From positions 1-53,694 of the IMG/VR virus record IMGVR_UViG_3300027736_000062: a DNA stretch of 53,694 bases; one strand, given 5' to 3'. Positions 2,905-53,694 of this stretch are shown one piece after another (positions within the stretch are counted from its first letter, which is position 1; every line of letters starts with the position of its first letter). The notes under the pieces are model-generated. The model was given only the letters and a program-made list of their open reading frames with translations. It was not told the origin of the DNA and made no database searches. The stretch is from a virus. Position numbers and translations under genes: made by a program.

Positions 2905-4173
2905 TTAGCAATTCACAGCTCCACCACGCTTTTTAGCGGGTGACACTGTGACTGACTCTTTGGTCTTTGTGACGCTGTCAGTTTTGGGCATCGAGGAGAA
3001 CAGGTCTTTGGCCACGCTCTTCACTTTACCCATCACCTTGCCGGGGAAGCCACGGATCGACTTGGCCATGGCCATATCGTCCTCGTCAGGCCCCATTGCC
3101 TTGTCGTAAGCACCTTTTGAGAGGTCGACAGTGCCGCCCTCCGCAAGCTTCATACGGCTGGCTGGACCATACTTCTCGTTCGTGTCCATTTTGGCGGCAC
3201 GGAACGCAGGAGCATTCTCAGAGGTAGACATTTTCTGCAAGCGACCTTGTGCGGGCGTTACTTTGCCACCAGCCTTGTAAGTACCAGCGAGTTCGTTGAT
3301 TCTTACGGGCTTGGAGGCGGGCTTGCGACCTTGAGGCATCGCGACGGGACGACCTGAATTAACAGTTCCGCCCGCCGCGTAGGCTTTTTTTGTGGAACCG
3401 CCTTTTTTGTACATGGCGTCACCCATCATGCCTTCGCCCATCATGCCGCCGTCCATCATGCCTTTGACCTTGCCGCCTTTTTTGTAGCCGCCGCCGTTTG
3501 ACTTGGCAACACCACCAGTAGCAAAGCCACCGCCATTGCCCAGCTTCACTCCACCAGTTTTGGCGGGTGAATGGTCAGGCTTGGCCGTGTCCATCTTGGT
3601 GTTGCGATATTCGCCGCCTTGGTCTTCGGTGTTGATGATGCCGTCGCCAGCAACCCCACCTTTGGCCATCTTGACGTCACCGCCTTTTTTGTAGCCGCCT
3701 TGGCCATTGACAACGCCGCCAGTGGCCATCTTGCCGCCCTTTTTGAGCTTCAATGAAGTGCCTTTGCCGCCTTTGTGCTCTTGCATGTCGTGCTGCTTGA
3801 AAGCCTTTTTGATCATGGCCTTGTCTTGCGCCATGTCCATCTTGCCGCCTTCAGCCTTGCCGCCTTTTTTCATTGCAGGCATACCCATAGGGGCCTGCAT
3901 TTGAGCAGCGCCGCCGATTGGGCCAGCAGGGCCAGCACCAGCGGGCATGCCCTTCATGGCGCGGCGACGCATAGCCAGCGAAGGCTTCATGGGAGCGCCA
4001 GCCATCGGCATGCCGCCACGGGCAGGCATCGCAGGAGGGATGTCAGCAGCGCTCATGGGCGAACCCATCATGCCACCGTCAGCCTTCTTGGCCACCTTGC
4101 CGCCTTTTTTGAGCTTCAGTTCAACTGAAGGCTCAGTGGTCTCCATTTTGACCATTGGTTTAAATTGACCCAT
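2905..4173 (-). CDS. Gly-Gly/Lys/Met-rich low-complexity virion-region protein
   Basis: 422 residues from the ATG at 4173, chosen because AAGGAG lies 6 nt upstream; a longer frame exists but has no such site. About 25 Gly-Gly pairs occur, mostly in the form hydrophobic-(A/K)-x-GG-x-(V/M), for example YKKGGDV, MAKGGVA, YAAGGTV, LAEGGTV and the C-terminal KKRGGAVNC. The sequence is also rich in Lys and Met, with long stretches unlikely to fold. It sits two genes below the major capsid gene. The same short motif recurs in at least three other proteins here. Candidate roles are a scaffold-like, processing or nucleic-acid-associated protein; none is proven. Confidence 0.75.
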   Translation of the reverse strand: MGQFKPMVKMETTEPSVELKLKKGGKVAKKADGGMMGSPMSAADIPPAMPARGGMPMAGAPMKPSLAMRRRAMKGMPAGAGPAGPIGGAAQMQAPMGMPAMKKGGKAEGGKMDMAQDKAMIKKAFKQHDMQEHKGGKGTSLKLKKGGKMATGGVVNGQGGYKKGGDVKMAKGGVAGDGIINTEDQGGEYRNTKMDTAKPDHSPAKTGGVKLGNGGGFATGGVAKSNGGGYKKGGKVKGMMDGGMMGEGMMGDAMYKKGGSTKKAYAAGGTVNSGRPVAMPQGRKPASKPVRINELAGTYKAGGKVTPAQGRLQKMSTSENAPAFRAAKMDTNEKYGPASRMKLAEGGTVDLSKGAYDKAMGPDEDDMAMAKSIRGFPGKVMGKVKSVAKDLFSSMPKTDSVTKTKESVTVSPAKKRGGAVNC

Positions 4174-19486: not shown

Positions 19487-19519
19487 CTGCGGGATGCAGT
19501 GGTGTAATTCTATATTAAA
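19487..19519 (-). promoter_or_regulatory. Promoter-hairpin leader cassette, copy D
   Basis: On the minus strand: TTTAAT (19519-19514), a -10-like TAGAAT (19512-19507), 7 nt ending in CA, then a hairpin CTGC / GCAG (19499-19496 with 19490-19487) followed at once by GCAACAC. The layout matches copies A-C at 22.2, 20.7 and 19.8 kb, apart from a shorter distance between TTTAAT and the -10. It precedes the gene starting at 19463. Confidence 0.55.
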
Positions 19520-19537
19520 TTTCAAGGCTGTGCCAGT

Positions 19538-19783
19538 TCACTGAAAATATTCTGCAATCTCTTGCTCAATGGCCGCTTCAATCTTGCTGGTCAACTTCTT
19601 GGCCAACCATGGTGCAGGGCGGCCACGGCGGTCACAGACCTCCCACTCGCTCTCGGTGTAGCCGTAGTAGTCCCAATCGCTGTCTGCGCGGCTGTCGCCT
19701 GCGACGCTCTCGAAGTGGGTGACGCCGACGATGCATGGGATGCCTGCTACGCGGGTCTCAATTTCTGCGATGTAGTTTGTCAT
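19538..19783 (-). CDS. Conserved small protein, 81 aa
   Basis: An N-terminal beta segment (MTNYIAEIETRVAGIPCIVG) is followed by a tyrosine/tryptophan-rich part (DWDYYGYTESEWEVCDRRGR) and a C-terminal helix (LTSKIEAAIEQEIAEYF). The WDYYGYTE-type segment recurs in small hypothetical phage proteins that I recognise only as conserved. The gene is preceded by leader cassette C and stands alone between two cassettes. The function is unknown. Confidence 0.7.
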   Translation of the reverse strand: MTNYIAEIETRVAGIPCIVGVTHFESVAGDSRADSDWDYYGYTESEWEVCDRRGRPAPWLAKKLTSKIEAAIEQEIAEYFQ

Positions 19784-19807
19784 TTCGCTGTTCCTTTTCG
19801 CTGTTAC

Positions 19808-19848
19808 CGATCTTGCTGACCGTGTTGTTAGTATAACACCAGATTAAA
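19808..19848 (-). promoter_or_regulatory. Promoter-hairpin leader cassette, copy C
   Basis: On the minus strand: TTTAAT (19848-19843), N7, an extended -10 TGTTATACT (TATACT at 19835-19830), 7 nt (AACAACA), then a hairpin CGGTC / GATCG (19822-19818 with 19812-19808) followed by GTAACAG. The stem sequence differs from copies B and D but the pairing is kept, with one G-U. It precedes the gene starting at 19783. Confidence 0.65.
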
Positions 19849-19890
19849 CTAAAATACGGCCAATGCAAAATATTTTCTAAGTAGTTTCCC

Positions 19891-20655
19891 TTATGCCGCC
19901 TTGCCTGCTTCGAGGATCTTGTTGGCTGCGCTGAAGATGCGCTGGGCCGACTTATCGGTGATGTCTGCGCCTTGCAGCCAGTTCTGGATGTAGCCGCGTG
20001 ACTCGTGCAAGCCGGGCAGGTCCAGCACCGAGCACAGGATGTAGGCCACGCCCTCTGCCTCGACTTCGCGGATGTCGCGGGGTGTCACCTCGCTGTCGGC
20101 CATCACCTCGTCGGTGGTGTGGCCAAGGACGACGTGGGCCAGCTCATGGAAGCGTGTCTTGTGGGGCAGCACGGCCACTGGGTTGATGGCGATGGTGCGA
20201 CCGCTGGCGTAGCCTTGGCAGTTACCGTTGGGGTAGTCAAAGGCCACCTCGCTGATGTCCAACTTAACCAACGCGGCTGCCTTGTCCCATGCTGGGGTGA
20301 CCACCTCGTTGACATACTCGTCGCCCTCAGTCTGACCGAGCACGAACCAGTTATTGCGAAGGCTGAACATGCTGAACGACTCGCCAGTCTTTTCGCCTGC
20401 TGCGTCTTTTTTGTTGATGGTGAGGGGCATCACCAGTGCGATGGCCTTCTGGCCCTTGCTGACTTGGCGGCCCAGCTCGGACCACTTCTTGTAGGTGGCG
20501 ATGGGGCCGATGGGGATCTCGCGCTCCATGCACTGTGACCAAGCCAGCAGTTGGTTGCCGATGCTGTAGCCGTGAAAGGTGCTGTAGCACTTGCTGATGA
20601 TGCCGGGCTGGTTGACGGCGTCTTGAAGCAGTTGGCTGAAGTTTGCTTTTTCCAT
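19891..20655 (-). CDS. ArdC-type antirestriction protein (ssDNA-binding plus zincin metallopeptidase-like)
   Basis: 254 residues. The N-terminal ~110 residues (MEKANFSQLLQDAVNQPGII, STFHGYSIGNQLLAWSQ, then YKKWSELGRQVSKGQKAIAL) match the ArdC N-terminal domain, which binds single-stranded DNA. The C-terminal half has the zinc-protease signature H170-E-L-A-H174 (RFHELAHVVLGH) and a downstream E199/E201 in REVEAEGVAY. ArdC proteins of plasmids and phages protect incoming DNA from restriction or cleave host proteins. It has its own promoter cassette (copy B), as expected for an early defence-countering gene. Confidence 0.85.
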   Translation of the reverse strand: MEKANFSQLLQDAVNQPGIISKCYSTFHGYSIGNQLLAWSQCMEREIPIGPIATYKKWSELGRQVSKGQKAIALVMPLTINKKDAAGEKTGESFSMFSLRNNWFVLGQTEGDEYVNEVVTPAWDKAAALVKLDISEVAFDYPNGNCQGYASGRTIAINPVAVLPHKTRFHELAHVVLGHTTDEVMADSEVTPRDIREVEAEGVAYILCSVLDLPGLHESRGYIQNWLQGADITDKSAQRIFSAANKILEAGKAA

Positions 20656-20683
20656 GATGATCTCGCTTTCAATTCTGTGTTAC

Positions 20684-20734
20684 CTGCGAAAGTGCAGTGG
20701 AGTTAGTATAACCTGGAATTAAACAATACAACAA
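20684..20734 (-). promoter_or_regulatory. Promoter-hairpin leader cassette, copy B
   Basis: On the minus strand: -35 TTGTTG (20734-20729), an 18-bp spacer containing TTTAAT (20723-20718), -10 TATACT (20710-20705), 7 nt (AACTCCA), then a hairpin CTGC / GCAG (20697-20694 with 20687-20684) followed by GTAACAC. It drives the ArdC-type gene. Spacing of the -10 to the hairpin is identical to the other copies. Confidence 0.7.
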
Positions 20735-20751
20735 CCAACCCAAATTATTTT

Positions 20752-20919
20752 CTAGGTATTTTCCCTAACCTCTTTAGCCTCCATGCGGAGGTGCGCCAGC
20801 AGCACGCCAAGGTCTTGGCCAACCTCCGCCTGCCACAGCTCGATCTCTCGCAGGATGTAGTCGCACCCGGCGTCAAAGCCTTTGATGTAGTCCGACATCA
20901 CGGTCTCTGGCGCGTTCAT
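20752..20919 (-). CDS. Small protein, 55 aa
   Basis: It starts MNAPETVMSDYIKGFDAGCD, then continues as one long amphipathic helix (ILREIELWQAEVGQDLGVLL). The YIKGFDAGCDYI segment is a pattern common in short phage proteins. Its ATG overlaps the preceding stop by ATGA. Its TAG stop lies at the start of an AT-rich stretch that leads into cassette B. The function is unknown. Confidence 0.65.
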   Translation of the reverse strand: MNAPETVMSDYIKGFDAGCDYILREIELWQAEVGQDLGVLLAHLRMEAKEVRENT

Positions 20920-21107
20920 GCTGCAACCCCTTGGCGGGCCTCTTGACGGCCTCGTTCGACCAAGTAGCGGGCCTCGGTCCTATCCTCGATCGTTTCGGCC
21001 TCCAAGAGCGTTCTGATGGCCTGCGCGGCTGCTTGGCCAGCAGCAGGGGACTGCGCACGCTCGTACTTGAACCCGAGCGAGATGTATTGGACTTCTGCGT
21101 GCTTCAT
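20916..21107 (-). CDS. Small helical protein, 63 aa
   Basis: It begins MKHAEVQYISLGFKYERAQS, then two charged helices (AAAQAIRTLLEAETIEDRTE, ARYLVERGRQEARQGVAA). ATGA overlaps join it to both neighbours. No family is recognised. Confidence 0.65.
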   Translation of the reverse strand: MKHAEVQYISLGFKYERAQSPAAGQAAAQAIRTLLEAETIEDRTEARYLVERGRQEARQGVAA

Positions 21108-21385
21108 GCTGTGTACTCCAGTGCCTGCAAATTGCTGATGCGATTGTTGATCTCGGTGACCGTTTTTTGGTACTCGGCCATGACCTTTTGCTTTTGCTGT
21201 TCCAACGCGGCAATTTGCTGTGCGCGTGGATCAAATTTGTCAGGCACTTCGATCTCGATTTCTTGAGGACCAACGTAAACGCGATGGTCGCAGTCTTCAA
21301 GCTTGAACGAGAAGACTTGAAACTCGCCCTTCTCATCGAAGGAATATTTTTGGTAGTGAACGTGGACTGTGGTTTTAACTTGCAT
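21104..21385 (-). CDS. Small protein with a beta N-terminus and coiled-coil C-terminus, 93 aa
   Basis: The first ~55 residues alternate polar and hydrophobic (TTVHVHYQKYSFDEKGEFQV, then RVYVGPQEIEIEVP), suggesting a small beta sheet. The last ~35 residues form a coiled coil (AQQIAALEQQKQKVMAEYQK). The stop overlaps the next start by ATGA. The function is unknown. Confidence 0.65.
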   Translation of the reverse strand: MQVKTTVHVHYQKYSFDEKGEFQVFSFKLEDCDHRVYVGPQEIEIEVPDKFDPRAQQIAALEQQKQKVMAEYQKTVTEINNRISNLQALEYTA

Positions 21386-21403
21386 GATTCGCTTTCGTTT
21401 CGG

Positions 21404-21577
21404 TTATGCGGTGATGACGCCTTGGTTGATAAGCTGCTGGGCCGTGCGACCGAACCAGCCTTGAAGTTGCCACGCGAGGCCAGTGTCCACAAGGGTCTGC
21501 CATGCCTCGATGACTTGCTCTTCGCTGTCGGCCTCAATAAAGCCCTCTGCGATGCCTGTTGCTGTGTAGTTATCCAT
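21404..21577 (-). CDS. Small conserved protein (DUF7417-like), 57 aa
   Basis: The sequence MDNYTATGIAEGFIEADSEE and VIEAWQTLVDTGLAWQLQGW, then FGRTAQQLINQGVI, is a pattern of very short proteins common in many phage early regions. The family name is from memory. A GAAAGGAAAG site lies upstream of the ATG. The function is unknown; small size and early position suggest a host- or replication-modulating protein. Confidence 0.7.
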   Translation of the reverse strand: MDNYTATGIAEGFIEADSEEQVIEAWQTLVDTGLAWQLQGWFGRTAQQLINQGVITA

Positions 21578-21624
21578 TTCGCTTTCCTTTCGCTTTTGAT
21601 GGGGGCCGAAGCCCCGTGGGTTGA

Positions 21625-21888
21625 TTAGATGTAACTGTCTTCTTTGCGCTTGTCTTTGCCATTGTTGAACTGGCGTAAAGCTTCGCTCTTGTGATAGTCG
21701 GAGCCGTGCTTACTGATGAAATTCAGCAGGTCACGGCGCACTTTGATTGGATGCCAGTATTCGCCCTCTGCATGCAAGTCCAACTCGTGCAGGCAAACAA
21801 AACTCATGTCATCTACGGTGCTGTGAACCAATGGGTCAAAGTAAGTGTGGTGTGACACTTTGGAGAAATCTTTTTTTGCGTCAGTCAT
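21625..21888 (-). CDS. Small His/Asp-rich protein, 87 aa
   Basis: The protein is polar with many histidines and aspartates (KVSHHTYFDPLVHSTVDDMS, HELDLHAEGEYWHP). Its C-terminus is basic (FNNGKDKRKEDSYI). A GGGGGGCAAC stretch lies just upstream of the ATG. The stop is followed by a GC hairpin with a TTCG loop (21602-21615) but no T tract. The function is unknown; metal binding is conceivable from the histidines. Confidence 0.65.
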   Translation of the reverse strand: MTDAKKDFSKVSHHTYFDPLVHSTVDDMSFVCLHELDLHAEGEYWHPIKVRRDLLNFISKHGSDYHKSEALRQFNNGKDKRKEDSYI

Positions 21889-21901
21889 GTTGCCCCCCTG
21901 A

Positions 21902-22201
21902 TTAACGTGAAGTTACTTTGACGCTGAACACTGCGGTCACTTTGGTGTGACGTGCGATCTGCTCAGGTGTTGCGCCCAGCTCGGCGAAGAGGGCCTTGCT
22001 GTCAACCACAGAGCGGTTGGTCTCGATGTAGGTGGCTTTGAACAGCTCACCCTCAAAGGACTTGTCGCCTGTCAGGCTGGCGTCGTTCTTAATGCCGTCC
22101 TTGATGGCGTCGGCTTGCTTGGTCAGTGCTGCAATCTGTGCGAGCAATGCACCCAAGGTGTCAACGTCGTGGGCGGCTGGGGTAGTGATGGTAGTAGTCA
22201 T
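21902..22201 (-). CDS. Conserved small phage protein, 99 aa
   Basis: The protein has a Thr/Ala-rich start, a coiled helix (LGALLAQIAALTKQADAIKD), a beta hairpin (FEGELFKATYIETNRSVVDS) and a C-terminal ARHTKVTAVFSVKV strand. This helix-then-FxAtxxxxxRxxvD architecture is widespread among short phage proteins that lie near recombination genes. It is directly driven by leader cassette A. No function is assigned. Confidence 0.7.
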   Translation of the reverse strand: MTTTITTPAAHDVDTLGALLAQIAALTKQADAIKDGIKNDASLTGDKSFEGELFKATYIETNRSVVDSKALFAELGATPEQIARHTKVTAVFSVKVTSR

Positions 22202-22223
22202 GTCGCTGGTCTTTCTCTGTTAC

Positions 22224-22286
22224 CTGACTGTGCGGATTTGCTGTGTCAGTGCATGTAGTGTAACACCAAATTAAACGAGTCAACAA
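22224..22286 (-). promoter_or_regulatory. Promoter-hairpin leader cassette, copy A
   Basis: On the minus strand: -35 TTGTTG (22286-22281), an 18-bp spacer containing TTTAAT (22275-22270), an extended -10 TGTTACACT (TACACT at 22262-22257), 7 nt (ACATGCA), then a stem CTGAC / GTCAG (22249-22245 with 22228-22224, 16-nt loop) followed by GTAACAG. It precedes the gene starting at 22201. Confidence 0.65.
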
Positions 22287-22296
22287 TTTTTTCAAA

Positions 22297-22593
22297 TTAT
22301 TTTGTAGGGACAAACCCTAATAGGGTCCGGACATCTTCCAGCAGGTCCAGCTCGCCGTAGCCGTAGTGCTTGGGGAAGCCCTTCGTGCCAAGGCCGTGGA
22401 GGCCCGTCTTGCCCCTGTGGTGCTCTGGGCATAGCGGTATGACGTCCATGTGCTTTGAGCGCCCCCAGCCCCCCGCCAAGGCCCTTGGATGATGCAGCTC
22501 GGCGGGGGTTCCCTCGTACCCCATGCGCCTGCACACGATGCAGCCCAGCTCGGCTACGCGGCTCATGTGCTTGCGCTCGGCGATGGTGGTCAT
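22297..22593 (-). CDS. Ref-type HNH nuclease (RecA-dependent nuclease-like)
   Basis: 98 residues. Zinc/active-site pattern: C18-x2-C21, H34-H35, then C55-x2-H58-H59, with the family signature GWGRSKHMDVIPLCPEHHRG and TGLHGLGTKGFPKHYG. This matches phage P1 Ref, an HNH endonuclease that cuts at RecA-made D-loops, and the related DUF968 proteins. P1 Ref has an extra N-terminal DNA-binding arm that is absent here. It lies in the recombination/replication block beside RusA. The nuclease family is secure; RecA dependence is inferred. Confidence 0.85.
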   Translation of the reverse strand: MTTIAERKHMSRVAELGCIVCRRMGYEGTPAELHHPRALAGGWGRSKHMDVIPLCPEHHRGKTGLHGLGTKGFPKHYGYGELDLLEDVRTLLGFVPTK

Positions 22594-34295: not shown

Positions 34296-37200
34296 TTATC
34301 TCCTAGCTGTGCGAGCGGGTTTTTTAAGGTAATCCAAAGGTGATTTTTTCGCTGGTGGCGGTAAATCCTTTGGTTTTGCCGACCTGTGATACGCCCGAAT
34401 CGAGTGCATCATGTTGTAGAGTTTATCGCTTCCTGCCTTAGTTGAGCCATTTCCAAGCGCGGCAACCACGTCAGCAGGGAATACAAATTCGCCATCAGCC
34501 AACATGGCAGGGATATCGTCCGACTGCCCGTCCCCGGGTCCCGTGACGGCGTTTCCTGTGCGGAAGTCCAGCCGTGGCTTGCCAGAGTGGTGAACCACAT
34601 TTAGCCCACCCCCAGCGTAGTGGCCATAGCGGGTTGTGCCGCCACCCGCAAACAGAGGCGTTGCAAGGCCACCAGCTTTGAATGGAAGCGTCGGAGCTTG
34701 ACCGCCACCCAGAAAGTCATTGATGTCGGTCTGCTGCCCGTAGTTGAAATAGTTAGACCCTTGCTGGGGCTGAGGCTGTGGGGTTGAGAGTTCGTCTTGC
34801 ACTTGGGCCACCTGCTGGTTCTGTTGTTGAGTTTCTTGCTGTGTTGGGTTTGGCGAGTAATCATTTTCTTTGACCATCTTGAGATATTGCTCAAGAGGGC
34901 CTTCAAACTTTGCTTCACCTGTAGTTTTCAAACCAATTTGTCGATATGGCGTGTCGTCGGACACAGCGGCAGCAGCGGGGGCAATCATGGCCATTGCGGC
35001 GCTGAGGCCGCCTTGAGTCCTTGCTTTGTCCTCAGCGGCCTTTTTGGCTTTTGCTTCTTCTTCTTGCTGTTTTTTAATATCGGTGACGCTGGTCTGTAAA
35101 CCACTTATGCCAGTGCCAAGCTCTTTAAGAGCCTGTTGCGTGGCCTCTTGATATGTCTTGCCTTGCAACACCAGCTCGTCGACGCGAGTGTTGAACTGCG
35201 TCTGAACATCGGTGATGTTCTTGGTCAGATCCGTCTTGACATCGGTAATTTGCTGAGTCGTTGTCTTGACTGCGGTATCAATTGCCTTGTTGATATCCAC
35301 GCCCATTTGGATTTGGGCATTGACGATGTCCTTCTGGTTTTGAGTCAGCGTGTCAAACTTGGTCTTGACGTCACCACTCAATGTGTTGAGCTGGGTCTTG
35401 ACGTCAGTGATCTGCTGCGTGGTCAACTTGGACGCAGTATCAATCGCTTTGTTGATGTCAATACCCTGTTGCGTGTACGCAGAGACAATGTCTTTTTGAC
35501 CTTGCGTCAGCGCATCAAATTTTGTTTTGACGTCAGCAGTAACACCAGTCAGCGCTTTTGTCAGCGCGTCATTGGTGACAGTGTCATTTGTTGCGGTTGT
35601 GCCAGTTGTACCTGTAGTCCCGGTAGTTCCAGTTGTACCAGTTGTACCAGTTGTACCAGTCGTCCCGGTTGTCCCGGTTGTCCCGGTTGTCCCGGTTGTC
35701 CCAGTGGTTCCAGTGGTTCCAGTGGTTCCAGTGGTTCCAGTTGTACCTGTCGTACCAGTAGTTCCGGTCGTTCCCGTGGTTCCAGTTGTGCCTGTAGTTC
35801 CAGTGGTTCCGGTAGTGCCTGTGGTTCCGGTAGTGCCTGTGGTTCCGGTAGTGCCTGTGGTTCCGGTAGTGCCTGTGGTTCCGGTAGTGCCTGTGCCGCC
35901 CGTTACAAAAGTCGTTCCAGTCGTACCTGTTGTCCCAGTAGTTCCCGTTGTTCCTGTGGTCCCAGTCGTGCCAGTCGTACCTGTGGTTCCTGTGGTTCCT
36001 GTAGTACCAGTCGTTCCGGTAGTCCCAGTTGTACCCGTTGTACCCGTTGTACCTGTTGTTCCGGTGGTTCCTGCTGTTCCGGTAGTTCCTGTTGTTCCGG
36101 TAGTTCCCGTTGTTCCGGTAGTTCCAGTAGTTCCCGTCGTTCCTGTTGTGCCCGTAGTCCCAGTGGTTCCCGTAGTTCCCGTCGTTCCGGTCGTTCCGGT
36201 CGTTCCGGTCGTCCCAGTGGTTGTTGTGACCTTAGACGCTTCATAGGCTGCTTTGTCACCGTTGAATTTAGTGTAAGTACCGTAGTCAGGAAAACCTGCA
36301 TCAATAGCTTTTTTGGTGTTTGCAGCCTGCGTCAGAGCATTGTTGTAAACGCCCAAATCACCTTTGTATTGAGTGTAGGTTGCGTAGTCGGGAAATCCCG
36401 CTGCTTTTGCAGTGGCTAAATTTGCCGCACTTGCATTGGCCGTGTTAAATGCATTTATGTCACCCTTGTAAAGGGTGTAATTTGCGTAATCAGGAAATCC
36501 TGCCGCCTTAGCAGTTGCCAAATTTGTGGCGTTTGTTTTGGCTGTGTTGTACGCCTGAATGTCACCGCTATATTGCGTATAAGTCGCATAATCGGGAAAG
36601 CCTGCATCAGTGGCTTTTTTGGTATTTGATTCGTTTGTTTTGGCGGTATTGTAGGCAGCAACATCTCCGCCATATTTGGTGTAAGACGCAAAATCAGGGA
36701 ATCCTGCGGAGGTAGCCTTGAGTGTGTTTGCGGCGTCAGTTTTTGCGGTGTTGTAATCCGACAAATTGCCGTTGTACTTAGTGTAAGTCGCATAGTCAGG
36801 GAACCCAGCCGCAGTGGCCAAGTTGTTGTTCTGCGCGTTCTGATAAAGCGTTTTGTCGCCACCATATTGTTGGTACGCAGCGTAATTTGGAAAGCCTGCT
36901 GCTTGAGCTACGGCCTCATAATCCGTTGTAGTTTGCAATGGCGCAGTTCCATTCAAAACGCTTGGGCTAAATACAACTTTGAAATCAGCCGCTGGCGTTT
37001 TGTAAATGTCATCGAGCACCGTTGTGAAATTAAACGATGGGTTTTTCTTGACGATTGAGTCAATGTTGCCAAGCGTGATTGGTGTTCCATCAGCAGACCT
37101 GTAAACAACAGTGCTGTAATCAGTCACGCTAGAAGGCAACGTGTCTTTTATGTCGCTTGGCGGAATTCCTATGCTTGTTCCAACAGCAGTCAATGCGCCC

Positions 37201-40200
37201 AAAGTAACCGAGCCACCATTGTTTGATTTGCCAATTTCAGCAGAAGAATTGAGAGTGCTCAGATCAACGTCTTTTGTTCCGTTCATCAGCTCTTGGAACG
37301 TCACATTGTTGCCCGAGTAATCTTTTGCAACAACGGCCAAATTATTGATTGATGCCGGGGCAATGATTGTGGCAGCCGTACCCGCTCCAATAATGCCAGA
37401 GTAGAAAGATTCTGCGTTTAATTGTCTGGTATTGATTTCGCCAGTCGTTACATACTGCGTTGTTGCATTTTGAGCATAAGTTTCAAGGTACTCTTGAGCA
37501 AAGTTAGTTGCAAGGGTTGAGCCAAATTTGGCCGCCACCTCTTTGACACCTCCAGTAACGCCTTGAAAATAATGTGCAAACAACATCTTGTCCGCAATAA
37601 ATTCTGTTGGAATTGTCACTGCGGCGTGAATTGCTCCAACCATCAAAGCCTTGTCGCGAGCCACATCTTCTGACACGCCTTTTGCTTTTAAGGCGTCATA
37701 AGTTTCTTTGGCTCCAGCCCCAAGAGACTCCAAACCATCAAGGGACGCAGAAATAGCCGACCTGACTGCGATTGCTGCTGGTATGCCCATCGGCCCCATA
37801 AAGGCAGTTGCCACGGCTCCAAGGGCCAGCCCGGGGCCTTCCTGAACAACCTCTTTGCCAGTGGCGCTGATGAACCCAAGCGGGTTGTCGTATGCGGCCT
37901 TGCTTATGGTTTGAATAGCAGTGAAAAAATCTTCCTTGCCTGCTTTTGCAATTGCGTTTTCAATGTTCTTTGTTTCTTGCGCAACGCTTGCACCGTCCTT
38001 GTCTTTGCCCCACTGCTCAATGGTTTTACCCAAGTTGTAAGTTGCGTTGTCGTAAGATGTTCCTGTGAGCGCTGCAACGCCACTGGCGTAGTTTTGCATC
38101 AGCTCGCCAATACCCTGAGCGCCTGTAGCCGCTAATTGACCAAGAACCCCGGTCGCCCGCACATTGGTGGCAGTTCTGTCGTCAGCAAGGCTTAGAGAGC
38201 CTCCTGTGACGTTACCCATGGCGTCGAAGGTGCGAGTATCAACGTAGACGTTGTCGTCCTTCTTGCCGTAGTAAATGTTCTCAGCGCCAGCAGGTTTGCC
38301 GCCCAAGAAACCTCGACCTGCACCAGCCACGTCGTTGGCAGGCATGAGGTTGATTCGGTTCTGAGCGTCAGCTAAATATTTGTCATAACGCTTGGTCTGT
38401 TCTTCTTTGTTTTCAGTGGTGTACTGTTTACCGTTCCACTCAAAAACCGCCCCGTTGCCGTATGCAGATCGCGCTGCCGCATAAGCTTGGCCAAACGAAA
38501 CTTTTTGGTCAACGGAAGCGCCGGGCGACACATAACCGGACGGCAAATCCAAACCATTGATGGCCAAGTCGGTGGCGGTGCTTTGGACGTTGCCTGACTT
38601 GAGTGCAGCTTGAAGCTGATCGCTTGTGGGGTCCTTGCCGACTACAGCAAAGTAAGCATCGCGTGCTTTTTGACTGGCCAACAAATTGATTTCATTGGTA
38701 GGACTGACGGTGTAAGTTGCTCCAGCAAGCTTGGCAGCTTCTGCTTCGGTCGGCGTGAAACCGTAATCGCGCCTGCAAATATTTTGCACGTCAGTAGTTG
38801 ACAACACGCGCCCGGCATCATTGTTGAAATCAACCTTGGACCCGTCAGTCCCAGTAAAGTCCATGACTTTTTGGGGAATGCCAGCAGCGTTGGTGAACAC
38901 CTGCTGACCGTCTTGCATAAACTTACCTTGACTGGTCAAAATCATGCCGTTGGAAAGGGTCCAACTGCCATCATCATTTTTGCTTGTAACCTTGATGGCC
39001 CCGGTGTTCAGGGCGTCAATGGTCGCATCACGAGTGGCCACCTCAGCCAGCGCCTTGGTGTAATTCTCAGCGGTCCGATCTGCCGCGTCTTTGGTCTTAG
39101 CCCAAGCATCGTATTTTGTTTGATAAGCGTCAGCAGCAGCCTTCAATGCAGCAGCAGTTGAGCCAACAGCAGTTACATCTTCAACATCTTTTTTGATGAC
39201 GTTAAGGTCTGCAATCTTTTTGTCAATTACAGCTTTGCTATCGCTCAATCCATCAAGCATTGGCTTGTTGTCGTCATACAGCTTTTGCGCTGCTTCTTGC
39301 GTAGACTTAGCCGTTGTGGCCGCAGCGTTGGCGGCTGTGGCGGCAGCATTTGCTTTGTCTGCAAACGACTGTTGAGTTGGCGCATCTTGAACAACTCGAT
39401 AGGTTGGGTTTCCCTCATCATCTGTTACGGTCCCGTCTGATTTCCAATATTTGTAATAACCATCTTCTGAGTTCCAACCGTCAGTTAATGTTGCTCCAAC
39501 AACCCTGTAGTAATAAATACCGTTATCGTCGTCACCTATTAAATATCCAATATCACGCATTTTTGCTTCGTAATTGTCGTAAGCCGATTTACTGTCGTCA
39601 AAAATTTTCTTTTGATCGTTAAACGTGTTTACGGCAGCCTCATTGTCAGAGGCTAATTTGTCATACTCTGTTTTGAACGGGCTGTACTGCTCATCAAGAA
39701 TTTTTTGGTATGCAGCAGCATCAGTATTGATGGCATTGCGCAGCTCTTCGCCTTTTGTGACTTTGGTGTCGTACTCCGCTTTGGCAAGGGTGTACTTATC
39801 TTGAGCCGCTTGAGCCGCTACAGTGTCTGTCGTCAGCAACTTGTATGAGTCTTTGACAGACTGCGCAAGGGACGACGTACCCATGTTTATGGTTGCATAA
39901 GCAATGTAATTGCCAATGGCCTGAGCTGGGTCGCCTTTGCCAGAAATGATTGTGTTCAAAGCGGTGCTTGTTGCACCCTTCATCAGGTCCAAAGCTTTGG
40001 TGCTGAATCCCCAGTTGGGGTCCTTGTTCAATGCATCAAAATAGCTGTTGGTTGATGAATAGACAAGACCAGATGTAAAGCCTGAAGCAATCCCATCAGT
40101 GATTGATTTTCCACTGATTGCCGCATTCAAGCCACCAATGATTGATGAATTCAAACTTGCAGTCGCAGCCTTCGCAACAGACACGGCCATGTCTGCTGGG

Positions 40201-40598
40201 AGGTTGTAATTCTGCATCATCGAGTTTGTGAAATCTGTACCAGCGGTTTTGGTGTAGTCGCCAATTACCTTGCCAATTTCAGTGCCACTTAAAGCTTCAG
40301 AAGCAACGTAAGAAATTGCTGCCGACTTGGCAATGTCTTCAAGCTTCCCGCCTTTGGCGGCAGTAATTGCCGCAGCAGTTACATATGGCGGAATTCCAAA
40401 ATATGTACCCGCAACTTGCAACAGAGTCGGCAAAGGATCTTTGAGAATAGCCGTGACTGCTTTGCCTATGCCCTCAACAGCACCAACAATTGCTTTGCCT
40501 ATCCCAGAAATAACATTACCCACGGCGCTAACAACGCCAGAGATAGCGTCACCAATTCCACCAACGATTCCTGATACTGCATCAACAATTCCACTCAT
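34296..40598 (-). CDS. Giant repeat-containing virion protein (2100 aa) with a collagen-like tract
   Basis: Order of parts: a Gly/Val/Ile-rich hydrophobic N-terminus (1-60); a helical Ala-rich region; coiled coils (~265-500); a region with hydrophobic helices (~900-1100, including [20 protein letters not shown]); seven ~34-residue repeats with [10 protein letters not shown] (~1231-1455); about 69 Gly-x-y triplets, nearly all Gly-Thr-Thr (1462-1668); two duplicated coiled-coil repeats ([11 protein letters not shown] / [11 protein letters not shown]); and a C-terminus with [19 protein letters not shown] and [21 protein letters not shown] very long DNA-ejection or spike-stem protein is likely, but the role is unknown. 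Confidence 0.8.
35595..36215 (-). repeat. Collagen-like (Gly-Thr-Thr) repeat tract
   Basis: In frame with the 2100-residue protein, 621 bp encode 69 consecutive three-residue units. All are Gly-Thr-Thr except one Gly-Thr-Ala and an FVT-GGT interruption near 35900. Codons vary at third positions, so the tract is maintained at protein level rather than being a simple recent expansion. Gly-x-y repeats of this kind form collagen-like triple helices, and threonine-rich ones in bacteria are often glycosylated. Confidence 0.85.
36236..36903 (-). repeat. Seven tandem ~34-residue repeats (AGFPDY units)
   Basis: Each unit reads approximately [20 protein letters not shown], followed by a ~14-residue TAKT-rich linker. 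Six intervals are 34 residues; the first is 30. The AGFPDY, YT-x-Y and GD elements are nearly invariant. They precede the collagen-like tract and probably form a repeated small helical or solenoid rod. Confidence 0.8.
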
Positions 40599-47898: not shown

Positions 47899-50800
47899 TT
47901 ACAAGAGGTAGGTGACTGTTGCGCCGTCCATTGAAACGGTATCAATGAAAAATATGGCTTTGTAGTACTGACCGGCGAAGCCGGGTGTCCAAATTAAAGT
48001 GCCGCCGCTGGTCGATACTGTCCCAGTGTATGAATACCCGTTAACAGCATATGTGACAACTGGAGTTCCAAGCGTCCAAGTTGGCGAAGCGCTTCCTTGT
48101 CGACCATAGTTGGCAACAAATTCAATTTCAGCCGCGTCAGACGCAACCGCGTGAACAACCATTATGCGAACTTTAATGAATGTCCAATTGTTTGTTCCCA
48201 GATTGGAAACCGTAAGTAAATTGACAGCGGCTGAACTAGCCCATGAAGTCAACATACGAATAGCAGATGTAGCATTACTTCCCGTTGAGTTATATTCAGT
48301 AGCACATCCGTTTGACCCGTCAATCACTGTTATAGGCGCACCATCCCCGTCAGACAAAACAATGCGGTTGCTTGCTGTGCGGAAGTCAAAGCCGTAAGAA
48401 TTGCCAGTAAATCCACCAATGATGACATTTTTTGAACCTGTGGTCATAGCATAACCACAGCCGTTTGTTGTGTCGTTTGTACCAACAAAAGTATTGCCAG
48501 TACCAGTTGTCATGAAGTAGCCAGAGGCTGTTCCAATAACTGTATTGTTGCCCCCAGTGGTTTTGCTAAACCCGGCTTGAGCGCCAATAAACACGTTTGA
48601 ATTTGATGTGTTGTTATAACCAGCCTGAAATCCCAGAGCCACAATGTTTACACCAGTGGTATTTGCAGAAGCCGCTTGATAACCGACGGCAGTGCTGTTG
48701 CCGCCTGTGGTGTTGGAGTAGAGGGCAAAGCGGCCAATGGCGGTATTAAAACTTCCAGTGTTGACTGCAAAGATTGCGCCGTCACCGATTGCTACGTTAC
48801 TGCCACCAGTTGTACTTTGCACCAGAGCGTACGAGCCAATTGCGACGTTATTGCCGCCAGTAGTGTTATCCCTGCCAGCGCTATCACCCATGTAGGTGTT
48901 TGAAGAGCCTGTGGTGTTGTAGTAACCAGCCAAGCTACCGACAAAAGTGTCTGAGGTTGCAGTGGTTGTAAATTTACCAGCTTGATAGCCAATTGCAGTT
49001 AATTGAGATGCGGTGGTTGCATTATTGCCAGCTTGAAAACCTAATGCTGTGTTGCTTCCTGTGGTTGAATAAAACAGCGCTTGATAACCGACAGCCGTGT
49101 TGTTGGCTGATGTTGTGTTGGTTTGAAGTGCGCCGCTGCCGACTGCAACGTTAAAGTTTCCGGTCGTGTTGTAGTAGAGCGATGAGTCGCCAAGGGCAAC
49201 GTTGTTTGCGCCTGTTGTATTGGAATACAACGCAGGGGAACCCATAGCGACGTTGTAAGAGGCTGTTGTCGTTGCATAACCAGTAAGGCGACCAATAAAA
49301 ACGTTTAAGCCACCAGTTGTAGCGGAGTAACCTGCCTGATAACCTACAGCAGTGTTGTTAGATGCTGTGGTGTTGGCATTAAGAGCCTGTACTCCTAAAG
49401 CGGTGTTGCTTCCGCCTGTTGTGTTGGCTCGAAGTGCGCCAAGACCTATAGCTGTATTATTTGAACCTGTTGTTGTAAACTGCAGCGCAACATATCCAAG
49501 TGAAGTGTTGTAGTCACCCGTTGTGTTGCTGTCACTTGCTGAACGACCTATAGCGGTATTTTGAGTACCCGTAGTGTTATTTGCCAAAGCCTGTAAACCG
49601 AAAGCTGAATTATCGCTTGCAGTGGTGTTTGATAAAAGTGCGGCAAAACCTACAGCAGTATTATTGCTACCAGTTGTGTTTGAACCAAGCGCCCCATTAG
49701 TACCACCATAAGTACCATTTCCAACTGCGGTGTTTAAAGTACCAGTAGTGTTGCTATTTAGTGCATTATCACCAAACGCAGTATTGTTGGATGCCGTGTT
49801 AGAGCGCAAAGCACCACGACCCACGGCGGTCACACCATTACCAGTTGAATTTGAATACAAGGCTTGGTAACCAATAGCCGTATTTTCTTGTCCAGTTGTA
49901 TTTGTGTATCCAGCTTGGTAACCAACAGCGGTGTTGTAAGATGCTGTGGTGTTGGCTTGGAGGGCCGCCGCACCAAGTGCTGTATTGTAGCTACCAGTGG
50001 TGTTGCTATCTAATGTTTGATAACCAAAAGCGGCATTTGCAGTGCCAGTGGTGTTTGCATATAAAGCCTGATAACCCATTGCAGTAGCATCACCAGAGGT
50101 ATTGCTGTACATGGCTTGAGTACCAACGGCAACAACTCCATTACCACTATTTGACGTATACCCAGCTTGATAACCTACAGCAGTGTTGTTAGATGCTGTG
50201 GTGTTGGAGTAAAGGGCTTGTGAGCCAAAAGCCGTATTTGACGCACCCGTTGTATTGGAGTACATGGCAATGTAGCCTAAAGCAGAATTATCTGCCCCAG
50301 TATTTAAATACAAAGCAGAACGCCCAACAGAAGTGTTTTGAATTCCAGTGGTTACGGAGCCTAAAGAATTTAAACCAAACGCCGTATTTCCAGAGCCTGT
50401 GCTGTTGCTTTGTAAGGCCCCCGAACCCACCGCAGTGTTGGTAGACACAGCACCCGCACCACGGCCTACTGTGATGCCGTAAACAGTCAGGTCAGTGCCG
50501 CTGTACAGCAAGTTAGCAGAGTCAGTCAGCAAACCGCCAGTTGTTGCGTAAGTCACGCGGCCAGAAGTGAGGCCAGAGTCGGTCAAAGACGTAACCGTTA
50601 CACCTGCCAATGAAAGCGATCCAGCAACCGTTACAGCGCCGCCAAAGTAGGCAGCGCCAGCAGCAACATACAGCGAGTACGGGTTGGTCAGCGTGACGTT
50701 TGTCCCAGCGCTTGGAGCGCCTGCAATGTACAGGGTTGCTGCGTTGGTATAGGTGACGCTGGTGTTGGTCGCGGCAATTGGCGTGATGCCCAAGGAGGCG

Positions 50801-51723
50801 ATTGCACCAATTGCGTTGGTTGCGCTGATTGCCGAAGTGACATCGGTCACAGTACCCGTGCCCATGTACAGCTTGGCAGGCGTAGCAGCAGCAAACACAG
50901 CAGAGCCATTGAAACTGCTATTGCCGATCGTGACGGTTTTGACTAAGGTGCTCAGGCCAGTTGTCGAGTAGCCAGTTGACGATAAAGTTGTGCCGTCAAA
51001 AGTCAAGTTTGCAGAGTCAGCCTCAAGGCCAGCAGTGCTGGCAATAACTACCCGACCAGAGGTCAGGCTGGTGTTGGTGATGCTAGAGCTAGAAACGCCT
51101 GTAAGGCCCGTCAGGGACGTCACCCACTGCGGAGCAGTACCAGAGGAGGTCATGACCCTGTTCGCGGCTCCAATGGCCAAGAAGGTGGTCGTGGCCACGC
51201 CAGACTGGTAAGGGACCGATCCAGCAGCGCCGCCAGCAAGGTTGGTCGCTGTGTTGACCGTAACGCTGGTAGGCGCAACCCACTGCGGAACCGTTCCAGT
51301 CGATGTCAAGATGTAGTTGACAGTGCCAATGCCCAGTTTGGACAGCGTGTTGGTGGCTGATGCGTACAGCACGTCACCTTGGGTATAGGCAGACTGCGCA
51401 GTACCGCCATAGGTCGCTCCGAGGGCGTTGGTGAGGTTCAGCGTGGTCAGCGTGGTTGTGCTTGTTCCGCTGTTGAACGTCATCGCAGCATTACCAGCCA
51501 ACGCCCCTGCGTTGTTGTACTGGATCTGCGTGGTTGAGCCGCCAATCGTGCCAGCACCCTTGGTTGCAATTACCTGCACAACGCCTGCGTTGTCCTCGTA
51601 ATACAGCTTGCCGTCGGTGATGTTAATTGCCAATTCACCTTGCGCAAGATTTGCCGCCAAAGGCACGGCAGATGCAGTTGTCGAAAAGTAAAGTTGAATT
51701 GGTGTGTAGTTCGTTGCAGCCAT
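47899..51723 (-). CDS. Giant tail fibre with YadA-like head repeats, 1274 aa
   Basis: The N-terminus (MAATNYTPIQLYFSTTASAV, LAQGELAINITDGKLYYEDN) is a common attachment or capping segment of phage fibres. Residues ~100-190 carry the module GDVLYASATNTLSKLGIGTV, also found at the end of the 760-aa fibre. Residues ~425-1110 form about 40 copies of a 17-residue unit, roughly NTAVGYQALYSNTTGSN, like the beta-roll head repeats of trimeric autotransporters. The C-terminus has an IVLSDGDGAP segment and a terminal beta domain. It probably binds the host surface as a trimer. Confidence 0.85.
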   Translation of the reverse strand: MAATNYTPIQLYFSTTASAVPLAANLAQGELAINITDGKLYYEDNAGVVQVIATKGAGTIGGSTTQIQYNNAGALAGNAAMTFNSGTSTTTLTTLNLTNALGATYGGTAQSAYTQGDVLYASATNTLSKLGIGTVNYILTSTGTVPQWVAPTSVTVNTATNLAGGAAGSVPYQSGVATTTFLAIGAANRVMTSSGTAPQWVTSLTGLTGVSSSSITNTSLTSGRVVIASTAGLEADSANLTFDGTTLSSTGYSTTGLSTLVKTVTIGNSSFNGSAVFAAATPAKLYMGTGTVTDVTSAISATNAIGAIASLGITPIAATNTSVTYTNAATLYIAGAPSAGTNVTLTNPYSLYVAAGAAYFGGAVTVAGSLSLAGVTVTSLTDSGLTSGRVTYATTGGLLTDSANLLYSGTDLTVYGITVGRGAGAVSTNTAVGSGALQSNSTGSGNTAFGLNSLGSVTTGIQNTSVGRSALYLNTGADNSALGYIAMYSNTTGASNTAFGSQALYSNTTASNNTAVGYQAGYTSNSGNGVVAVGTQAMYSNTSGDATAMGYQALYANTTGTANAAFGYQTLDSNTTGSYNTALGAAALQANTTASYNTAVGYQAGYTNTTGQENTAIGYQALYSNSTGNGVTAVGRGALRSNTASNNTAFGDNALNSNTTGTLNTAVGNGTYGGTNGALGSNTTGSNNTAVGFAALLSNTTASDNSAFGLQALANNTTGTQNTAIGRSASDSNTTGDYNTSLGYVALQFTTTGSNNTAIGLGALRANTTGGSNTALGVQALNANTTASNNTAVGYQAGYSATTGGLNVFIGRLTGYATTTASYNVAMGSPALYSNTTGANNVALGDSSLYYNTTGNFNVAVGSGALQTNTTSANNTAVGYQALFYSTTGSNTALGFQAGNNATTASQLTAIGYQAGKFTTTATSDTFVGSLAGYYNTTGSSNTYMGDSAGRDNTTGGNNVAIGSYALVQSTTGGSNVAIGDGAIFAVNTGSFNTAIGRFALYSNTTGGNSTAVGYQAASANTTGVNIVALGFQAGYNNTSNSNVFIGAQAGFSKTTGGNNTVIGTASGYFMTTGTGNTFVGTNDTTNGCGYAMTTGSKNVIIGGFTGNSYGFDFRTASNRIVLSDGDGAPITVIDGSNGCATEYNSTGSNATSAIRMLTSWASSAAVNLLTVSNLGTNNWTFIKVRIMVVHAVASDAAEIEFVANYGRQGSASPTWTLGTPVVTYAVNGYSYTGTVSTSGGTLIWTPGFAGQYYKAIFFIDTVSMDGATVTYLL
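48400..50440 (-). repeat. About 40 tandem 17-residue (51-bp) repeats in the fibre
   Basis: Units follow N-(S/T)-A-(V/F/I)-G-(Y/x)-x-A-L-x-S-N-T-T-(G/A)-x-x with a period of 17 residues; a few units are longer or shorter. Third-position divergence between units indicates old duplication under protein-level selection. Limits are approximate. Such repeats fold as a left-handed beta roll in YadA-like heads. Confidence 0.8.
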
Positions 51724-51732
51724 AATTTTTCC

Positions 51733-53694
51733 TTAGAAAGTCCCGCCCGAGATGCCAGACCAAACGGGTCCAGTTGCACCCGCTGTCAGCACATAACCCT
51801 GCGTGCCAAGCGCTAGTTTAGACAATGTTGTTGCGCCACTTGCGTAGAGCGTATCGCCAACCGTGTAACTTGTCAGATTTGTTCCGCCAAGATTAACAGG
51901 AACAGTGGTCAAAGAGATGACCGAACCAGTAATCACAATTGGTGATGTCCCTGTGTAAACCTGCGACGAGCTGAATTCAGCAAACGTGATTGCCGTCGTG
52001 CCAAAGGTGATGGTCCCAACAGTGGTTACAACAAAAGAAGTGTTCTTGTTGACGGTCCCGTTTTGGGTGAAGAAGTAATCGTTCTGGCTAAGTTGGTTGG
52101 CCCCAGTGCCGTAGGTGTCTGCGTCAGTTGCACGAGTCAACACCGTACCGCCCGTGGCCCATGTGTAGACGCCGTTGTAAGCTTGGTTGGCCTCGTCCTT
52201 GATCAGAACTCGGTTTGTGTTAGCCAGTGTATAGCCATCAAGAACAGTCAATGCCACGGATAATGTGAGGGTCGCTCCAACACCAGCCGTGCCGTTGTTG
52301 TAAGTGACCGTGCCACCTGTCGTCGTAGCAAGGGTCGTGGTTGTTGCCGCCTGCACAGGCTGGTGAAAAGTCAAGCCAACCGCAGCGGTGGTGTCCACAT
52401 ACTGTTTAGTTGCAAGCTGGAGGGCTGTTGTTGGGTCCTGAGTGACTGCAACAGAGGTCAAGCCACCAAGCGTCAATGAGCTGCTGCCAAGCGAGATTGC
52501 AGTCGTACCAACAGTCACAGAGCTGTTTGTCAGCGAGGCGTTACCAATATTGGAAAGCGTGTTGCTTGCGCCGCTGATGGTTTTGTTTGTCAGCGTTTGC
52601 GTGCCTGTCAAGGTCGCCACAGTCGAATCAATTGCAACAGTCACCGCAGCAGAGCCGTTGTAGCTCGTGCCAGTAAGGCCAGTGCCAATGGTCAGGCTAA
52701 ACAGGTTTGACCCAAGTGAGACGCCAGAGATCGTGCTGTTGGTCAGCGACGCATTGCCAATGTTGGTCAGCGTGTTACCTGTGCCACTGATTGACTTGTT
52801 GGTCAACGTGTCGGTGGTAGTACGAGCTACCAAGGTGTCTGTGATTGTCGGCAGGGTCAGTGTGCCAGTGTTGACGATGGTCGCAATGACTGGAGCCGTC
52901 AAAGTCTTATTGGTCAACGTCTGTGATGCGGACAATGTCACTACATCTATACCACCAACGGTTACCGCAGTTGCGTTGAACGTACCACCCGTCACCGTCT
53001 TGCCAGTGAAGGTCAGCGCGGCAGGCAGCGAAAGCACAACAACAGACGTTCCCGTTGCGGTTATTTCGTTTGCGGTTCCAGATACAGACGCCACCGCTCC
53101 GATGCCGCTTGGAGTGATTGTCAAATTAGCTGCGGCAGTCAGTTGACCTTGGGCGTTGACGGTGAAAGTTCCCACCTGAGTCGAAGACCCGTAGGACCCA
53201 GCGGTCACGGCGGTGTTGGCAAGTGAAATAGTGCCTGAGCCTGTGATAGGACCGCCCGTAAGCCCAGTCCCTGTATTGATCAAGGTCACGCCACCAGAGA
53301 GCGAGAATTGACGCCATGCGCCCGTGGAATAGCCCTCGTAGGCCCCGTCGGTGCTGTTATAGCGGATCTTCCCGTCTGCGCCAGAAGGCCTTTGGCCAGT
53401 GGTTCCCACGGGGATGAAGATTGACCCAGTGCCGGGGATGATAGGGTTGGACGCCAAACCAATGGTGGGGTTGCCAGCCGTGCCGTCCGCGTTGAACACG
53501 GCAGTCTGGTCAACCACGTTCAAGATTGACGTCGCCGACAGAGCACCAGCCGTGGTGATCACCATCAAGCCGTTGGCGCTCAGGTTGGCCAGATTCAGGA
53601 CTTGGCCAGCTAGAGTGATTGTAGGGTCGCCAGAAACGCCGCTTCCATTGGAAATTGACAGGCCCACGCCAGAAACGGCGATGGAACGGCCTGT
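51733..53694 (-). CDS. Tail fibre protein, residues 108-760 (continues at 153)
   Basis: This is the larger part of the fibre that begins at 474. It contains duplicated Thr/Asn-rich beta repeats (TLTNKTISG, NTLSNIGNASLTNSSVTVG) typical of beta-helix or beta-spiral fibres, a segment QDPTTALQLATKQYVDTTAA known from phage fibre stalks, and a receptor-region module ending in YTVGDTLYASGATTLSKLAL and VWSGISGGTF. The final module resembles part of the adjacent 1274-residue fibre. Complete length is 760 residues on the closed circle. Confidence 0.85.
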   Translation of the reverse strand, partial: TGRSIAVSGVGLSISNGSGVSGDPTITLAGQVLNLANLSANGLMVITTAGALSATSILNVVDQTAVFNADGTAGNPTIGLASNPIIPGTGSIFIPVGTTGQRPSGADGKIRYNSTDGAYEGYSTGAWRQFSLSGGVTLINTGTGLTGGPITGSGTISLANTAVTAGSYGSSTQVGTFTVNAQGQLTAAANLTITPSGIGAVASVSGTANEITATGTSVVVLSLPAALTFTGKTVTGGTFNATAVTVGGIDVVTLSASQTLTNKTLTAPVIATIVNTGTLTLPTITDTLVARTTTDTLTNKSISGTGNTLTNIGNASLTNSTISGVSLGSNLFSLTIGTGLTGTSYNGSAAVTVAIDSTVATLTGTQTLTNKTISGASNTLSNIGNASLTNSSVTVGTTAISLGSSSLTLGGLTSVAVTQDPTTALQLATKQYVDTTAAVGLTFHQPVQAATTTTLATTTGGTVTYNNGTAGVGATLTLSVALTVLDGYTLANTNRVLIKDEANQAYNGVYTWATGGTVLTRATDADTYGTGANQLSQNDYFFTQNGTVNKNTSFVVTTVGTITFGTTAITFAEFSSSQVYTGTSPIVITGSVISLTTVPVNLGGTNLTSYTVGDTLYASGATTLSKLALGTQGYVLTAGATGPVWSGISGGTF
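53543..53694. repeat. Right copy of the terminal redundancy (matches 2-153)
   Basis: It matches 2-153 except at 53568 (a here, g at 27). See the left copy. Both ends fall inside the 760-residue fibre gene, and the frame is unbroken when one copy is removed. The unit length of the closed genome is about 53541 bp. Confidence 0.9.

Follow-up and report, generated by a model that had tools for sequence, protein, structure and literature searches.

The virus record IMGVR_UViG_3300027736_000062 of IMG/VR, from a freshwater phage, is a stretch of 53,694 nucleotides (53.7 kb), here called the window and analysed over its full length, in which nearly all genes are read leftward. It carries four minus-strand leaders, located before the genes starting at 22201, 20655, 19783 and 19463, in which a promoter is followed by a small stem-loop, and this promoter-hairpin element is the subject of the present analysis. 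The leaders sit between a replication block (about 22.6-26.9 kb), encoding a DnaB-like helicase, primase-like and primosomal-like proteins and a RusA-like resolvase, and the terminase genes (15.9-17.9 kb). The gene served by leader 1 (21902-22201, minus strand, as are all leader features given below) encodes a 99-amino-acid protein of PHROG 6244; that of leader 2 (19891-20655) encodes an anti-restriction-like protein of 254 amino acids, with an ArdC N-terminal domain and a weak M78 peptidase match; and that of leader 3 (19538-19783) encodes an 81-amino-acid protein of the YuA gp49 family.

Each leader runs from a -10 hexamer through six bases, an A and a 4-5 bp stem-loop to G(U/C)AACA and a purine-rich ribosome-binding site, and all the parts described in the original prediction (the -10 box, seven nucleotides ending in CA, the stem-loop and G(T/C)AACA) are present in the four of them. 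In leader 1, promoter 1 (22257-22275) comprises TTTAAT at 22275-22270 and the -10 TACACT at 22262-22257, preceded by TG; the predicted +1 A lies at 22250 and hairpin 1, CUGAC ACAGCAAAUCCGCACA GUCAG, at 22224-22249. This hairpin belongs to a long class with inner GC/GC pairs, and the R1 model finds it with 46.6 bits (E 2.2e-13), a match by construction, since the sequence is in the model's own alignment. Promoter 2 (20705-20723), upstream of the ArdC-like gene, contains TTTAAT and the -10 TATACT at 20710-20705, followed by the predicted +1 A at 20698 and hairpin 2, CUGC ACUUUC GCAG, at 20684-20697. Promoter 3 (19830-19848), again with TTTAAT, has the -10 TATACT at 19835-19830, the predicted +1 A at 19823 and hairpin 3, CGGUC AGCAA GAUCG, at 19808-19822, where one of the pairs is G-U. 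Promoter 4 (19507-19519), of a second type, has TTTAAT at 19519-19514 and the -10 TAGAAT at 19512-19507, with the predicted +1 A at 19500 and hairpin 4, CUGC AUCCC GCAG, at 19487-19499. The stems thus read, in the DNA, CTGAC/GTCAG, CTGC/GCAG, CGGTC/GATCG and CTGC/GCAG for leaders 1 to 4.

The motif TTTAATN6TTAYAC occurs exactly four times in the whole window, every time within these leaders. TTTAAT itself, named in the original prediction as part of the shared layout, is found in all four, but it is not fixed relative to the -10 box, because the gap is 7 nt in three copies and 1 nt, before TAGAAT, in the fourth; what keeps its position relative to the -10 is the stem. Folding of the four predicted transcripts gives one unpaired A followed by a stem at +2, with energies of -5.0 to -7.9 kcal/mol; within the stem, bases pair with probabilities of about 0.8 to 0.99. 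An intrinsic terminator or attenuator was considered and rejected, given that there is no U-run and that GUAACA or GCAACA comes after the stem in all four leaders; none of the four hairpins appeared in a terminator scan of the window. A search of Rfam gave no match in the window, and six relatives gave only a sub-threshold match to int-alpA, which is unrelated.

Three of the four leaders can be aligned without gaps over 70 nt upstream, a region in which a TAGGGN6CCTA palindrome and a stretch of A/T have their centre about 62 nt upstream of the A. The palindrome is at 22294-22319 in leader 1 (TAGGGTTTGTCCCTA and CAAAATAATTT) and at 20742-20767 in leader 2 (TAGGGAAAATACCTA and GAAAATAATTT), with a diverged copy at 19867-19892 in leader 3 (AAGGGAAACTACTTAGAAAATATTTT); promoter 4 is without it. 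A distance of about 62 nt before the start is the spacing of class I activator sites. The arrangement of TAGGGN6CCTA followed by AAAATAATTT, from which the third window copy has diverged, is present in more than 110 IMG/VR promoters, and the motif was not found in 59 other Limnohabitans genomes (Limnohabitans being the likely host genus, as described below).

Relatives of these promoters were gathered from IMG/VR by the upstream motif alone, so that the collection was not biased for hairpins. At least 115 distinct promoters were found in this way, their -10 boxes lying mostly 57-60 nt after the motif start, and most of them have a stem directly after the start region, the stems clustering 7-11 nt after the -10. 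The position was tested on 45 leaders of less than 70% identity, reduced from the promoters among the matches listed, with stems of at least 4 bp: the distance from the -10 to the start of the stem was exactly 8 nt in 12 of the 45, 9 nt in 8 and 10 nt in 9, where 0.8 would be expected at each distance. In 44 non-redundant leaders the mean pairing probability at the profile peak, +3/+4, was 0.70/0.75 as against 0.27/0.32 in shuffled sequences. A stem peak at 2-3 nt, seen in a looser promoter set, was discarded as the product of miscalled -10 boxes in TACAATTACACC-type leaders, whose real -10 is probably TACAAT. A total of 72 loci in IMG/VR are related to the ArdC-like gene, and a leader of this kind is also seen in most of the closer ones. 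Some promoters of relatives (L009, about 2115-2175; L013, about 3005-3065; L040, about 3735-3795) have a -35 TTGACA inside the loop of a terminator-like stem, GGGGG(TTGACAG)CCCC, at the end of the upstream gene.

Pairing was examined in 139 distinct leaders bounded by anchors that are independent of the hairpin, namely the promoter and a ACAGCGAA-type box that precedes the ribosome-binding site. In 101 of these leaders the four bases next to the A find a perfect complement further downstream, while in an arm-swap control, where the arm of one leader was tested on another leader carrying a different arm, the figure was 7.7%; of the leaders without a perfect complement, most can still pair if G-U, a shift of register or a bulge (as in CUGACC..GGCAG) is allowed. 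The stems, of about 4-9 bp, are diverse and include CUGAC/GUCAG, UCGAC/GUCGA, CCGAC/GUCGG, ACGAC/GUCGU, ACAAC/GUUGU, CUGC/GCAG, CCGC/GCGG, CGGUC/GAUCG, CUGAG/CUCAG, AGAGC/GCUCU and CCAAA/UUUGG, besides a second stem class, AU-GCCCC/GGGGU. This second class, AU-GCCCC..GGGGUCUUUUAAGGA (L082, L118, L150 and others), has the same upstream motif before different genes, with its stem at +3, and its transcript would open with AUG.

In the long class all outer-helix cells (100%) are paired, three pair positions show double compensatory changes, and the double-changed cells number 38 as against 11.2 in shuffles (0 of 500 shuffles); a wider long-class set shows the same pattern, again with 100% of cells paired. 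The short class has double changes in 4 of 5 pairs and a score of 0.61 versus 0.17. When the partner arm was slid by 1-3 columns the covariation signal was lost every time, and the slid long-class controls were at most 38% paired. Kinship inflates the shuffle tests, so that we rely chiefly on how many different arms occur and on the outcome of the swap test. A background of 4.3% applies to such a stem directly after an A, giving about 4e-6 for four out of four if the leaders are independent; a chance origin of the stems is rejected by this comparison together with the position excess and the arm-swap test. Since the stem letters change while pairing is kept, the comparison of leaders strongly supports selection acting on hairpin structure and not on its sequence, and the suggestion to this effect in the original prediction, made from the differing stems of the window, is borne out by the compensatory changes in relatives and by the swap test.

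The same observations bear on the idea that a repressor binds the inverted repeat as a DNA operator. Repressors often bind inverted repeats that overlap +1; here, however, the arms differ between leaders of one genome while pairing is conserved, G-U pairs such as that of CGGUC/GAUCG occur, and the spacing between the arms ranges from 2 to about 17 nt, which makes an operator very improbable.

The start of transcription is likely the A of CA, as judged from a conservation pattern of the kind expected for a start: among the 139 leaders, position -1 is occupied by C in 133, +1 by A in 138 and +2 by a pyrimidine in 127, and the A follows the -10 by 7 nt in 117 leaders, by 8 nt in 20 and by 6 nt in 2. 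In the CUGC class, where the A shifts one base further the start of the stem shifts too, so the stem position seems to be measured from the A. The original prediction had left the stem at +1 or +2; tight spacing and the CA initiator favour +2, counted from a start that is itself predicted. A fixed distance from the -10 and conserved first bases (CA, then a pyrimidine) would also suit an element that influences transcription initiation or the escape of the polymerase from the promoter, whether by way of the initially transcribed sequence or of a nascent hairpin of the pause type, and yet the arms vary freely with pairing kept, and pairing is impossible before about 25-40 nt have been made, so that such a role appears quite unlikely.

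A hairpin that serves translation, by insulating the ribosome-binding site against pairing with upstream sequence or providing a stable single-stranded landing site whatever the nature of the 5' end, is somewhat less improbable, although it too is unlikely. A Shine-Dalgarno-like site shortly after the stem agrees with this reading, as do orthologues of the 19783 gene in other relatives, which are without a promoter of their own and often have a GGGGG..CCCCC hairpin directly before the ribosome-binding site. It leaves unexplained, however, why the stem begins at a set distance from the -10 and the A, when its distance to the start codon varies, from about 22 to 28 nt in the window. An intergenic hairpin of the window, GGGGCUUCGGCCCC at 21602-21615 (minus strand), likewise lies directly before the ribosome-binding site of a gene, starting near 21576; it is of the CUUCGG type known from T4, and intercistronic hairpins resembling it precede the 19783-gene orthologues in several relatives.

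Of the two functions offered in the original prediction, a block to 5'-end decay and a binding site for a phage regulator, the first is plausible and preferred by our analysis. The second would make the hairpin a recognition site, bound in the nascent RNA by a phage RNA-binding protein or, in the manner of HK022 put RNA or lambda nut, by RNA polymerase itself, and regulating translation or antitermination over the long leftward operon. Repetition of the hairpin at several promoters of one genome is consistent with recognition, as are the frequent presence of GUAACAGCGAA next after the hairpin, the intergenic hairpins of the operon (for example 21615-21602) and, above all in the case of a regulator binding the loop, the apical AGCAA..GC retained in nearly all members of the long class. 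On the other side, the four window loops are all different and share nothing, the GCCCC-type class of other phages has another 3' flank (UCUUUUA), and the leaders are without a boxA-like site and have a single hairpin where put has two. This function is therefore less supported and, in our judgement, rather doubtful, even if it is the most probable of the alternatives.

The host genus is likely Limnohabitans, an assignment that rests on one contig of a metagenome-assembled genome (MAG): the sole bacterial contig with a long-class leader belongs to a Limnohabitans MAG and resembles a related phage. RNase E was found in 15 of 15 Limnohabitans genomes and RppH above the cut-off in 12 of 15. The hairpin model has matches in 3 of 201 genomes of the family, these being the phage-like contig, L196 and one weak match. 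In L196 (1490-1525), a genome of the Limnohabitans family, the same leader layout (CATACT, six bases, A and a UCGAC..GUCGA hairpin) is seen at a chromosomal-looking gene for a small secreted-like protein, and the promoter-hairpin device may accordingly not be exclusively viral. As to host leaders as a source of the device, no excess of 5' hairpins was found at the 18 promoter-like sites, a small number, that an 800-kb portion of one Limnohabitans genome contained. Among 50,697 records of isolate phages there was no credible match to leader 1, and the ArdC-like protein has only distant relatives there.

RppH requires two, preferably three, unpaired 5' nucleotides and favours a purine at +2 (PMC7144940), and RNase E and RppH depend on single-stranded 5' ends, so that 5' structure stabilises mRNA (PMC3997798). 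Leaders that leave a single A unpaired and hold a pyrimidine at +2 inside the stem would be poor RppH substrates. In the scheme that we infer, where start site, host, activator and decay effect are all deduced, the element would be a promoter fused to a 5'-terminal RNA stem-loop. Host RNA polymerase of the sigma-70 type would start at the A, probably aided by a factor on the palindrome about 62 nt upstream, and produce a transcript that reads A-[stem-loop]-G(U/C)AACA before it reaches the ribosome-binding site; nearly every message made from such promoters would thus open with a hairpin one base from its end. RppH would hardly be able to strip the triphosphate from an end with one unpaired nucleotide and, usually, a pyrimidine at +2 inside the stem; the 5' sensor of RNase E would meet no single-stranded monophosphate end; and phage messages, including that of the anti-restriction-like gene, would live longer during takeover of the cell. 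Protection of the 5' end would explain why position and pairing are conserved while the letters of stem and loop drift. That the 5'-terminal stem, with its one unpaired base, shields phage mRNAs from 5'-end-dependent decay is, on this comparative evidence, marginally better than an even proposition.

Several observations weigh against shielding. A promoter kept without its stem, which the original prediction had named as a sign against itself, was found once, in the 19783-gene orthologues of several relatives, which have a TACAAT-type promoter and a leader, ATCAACAGCGAAAGG, with no hairpin; L081, L098, L178 and L136 also share the upstream motif and yet have no stem at the start. The class 1 stems are short, with 4-5 bp and an outer helix of about -3 to -5 kcal/mol, and may breathe; the second leader class starts its stem two nucleotides in, and RppH might be able to act on it; and the conserved inner GCAA..GC of the long class would exceed the needs of a plain blocking stem. 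Among 28 distinct leaders of 22201-gene orthologues, a strict automatic test finds the hairpin in 18, and in several of the remaining ones a hairpin missed by the test is visible by eye. The hairpin is thus common but not obligatory, because one orthologous promoter group and a few other leaders are without a stem. A wider picture, in which a regulon of many uncultured freshwater phages uses the palindrome promoter and 5' hairpin to armour every early or middle mRNA, while the GCAA..GC at the tip of the long class is recognised by a phage factor that switches protection or antitermination during infection, is speculative and, to our mind, improbable as a whole.

Other features of the window are a 152-bp terminal direct repeat (2-153 and 53543-53694, 99% identical), which suggests a complete genome, nine-base repeats at 35491-36186, within an open reading frame of 2100 amino acids (34296-40598), and 51-base repeats at 48481-50439, within one of 1274 amino acids (47899-51723).

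Individual genes are known whose mRNA decays more slowly because of a stem-loop at its 5' end. The promoters described here, over a hundred in phages, amount to a natural repeat of the experiment, with the stem at one place and its sequence free, and they provide a natural set of variants for testing whether phages escape 5'-end-dependent decay through promoter architecture. The element could also be used as a portable 5' stabiliser when genes are expressed in Burkholderiales. In the library of papers covered by the literature searches there was no account of such a promoter-hairpin module. These uncultured phages share a promoter class undescribed so far.

Among the phage systems, the nearest repeated leaders are the SAS/ESAS elements of cluster K mycobacteriophages, inverted repeats that recur in the short leaders of some of the non-structural genes and that the host has rarely or not at all (PMC3203893). 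The arms of ESAS are 17 bp long and conserved in sequence, and its authors found little in favour of hairpins in the mRNA (PMC3203893), whereas here pairing is conserved and sequence is not, in stems of about 4-9 bp. The 13-bp SAS GGGATAGGAGCCC has 8 matches in the window at up to 3 mismatches, with 9.6 expected, and none in the leaders. HK022 put and lambda nut are, like the present hairpins, RNA structures near the start of early phage transcripts, but here one hairpin stands at +2 at several promoters and the loops are not common to them; no match to a boxA-like site was found in the four leaders, and each has one hairpin, unlike the two-hairpin form of put. The T4 gene 32 leader hairpin (CUUCGG), reported to confer stability according to a work cited in PMC8948821, is also a phage mRNA leader hairpin; in T4 it concerns one gene and a CUUCGG loop, while here there are several per genome, with the stem at +2 and no common loop in the window.

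The closest likeness is to the ompA and papA mRNAs of E. coli, which have a stem-loop at the very 5' end in a host with RNase E and RppH, a position that denies unpaired 5' nucleotides to both enzymes (PMC3997798, PMC7144940). Here the stem would occupy +2, provided that transcription starts at the conserved CA; pairing, and not sequence, is what matters, as seen in the swap test and the compensatory pairs; and the 5'-end-dependent decay machinery is present in genomes of Limnohabitans, the host genus suggested by one MAG contig. In contrast to ompA and papA, the hairpin is here part of a repeated promoter module, with several copies per phage genome, common to many uncultured phages, and its varied stem sequences stand at a fixed distance from the -10. 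By this analogy, and with no claim of membership in the ompA/papA group, the element, whose structure is real, appears to be a phage-wide form of the known 5' stabilising stem-loop.

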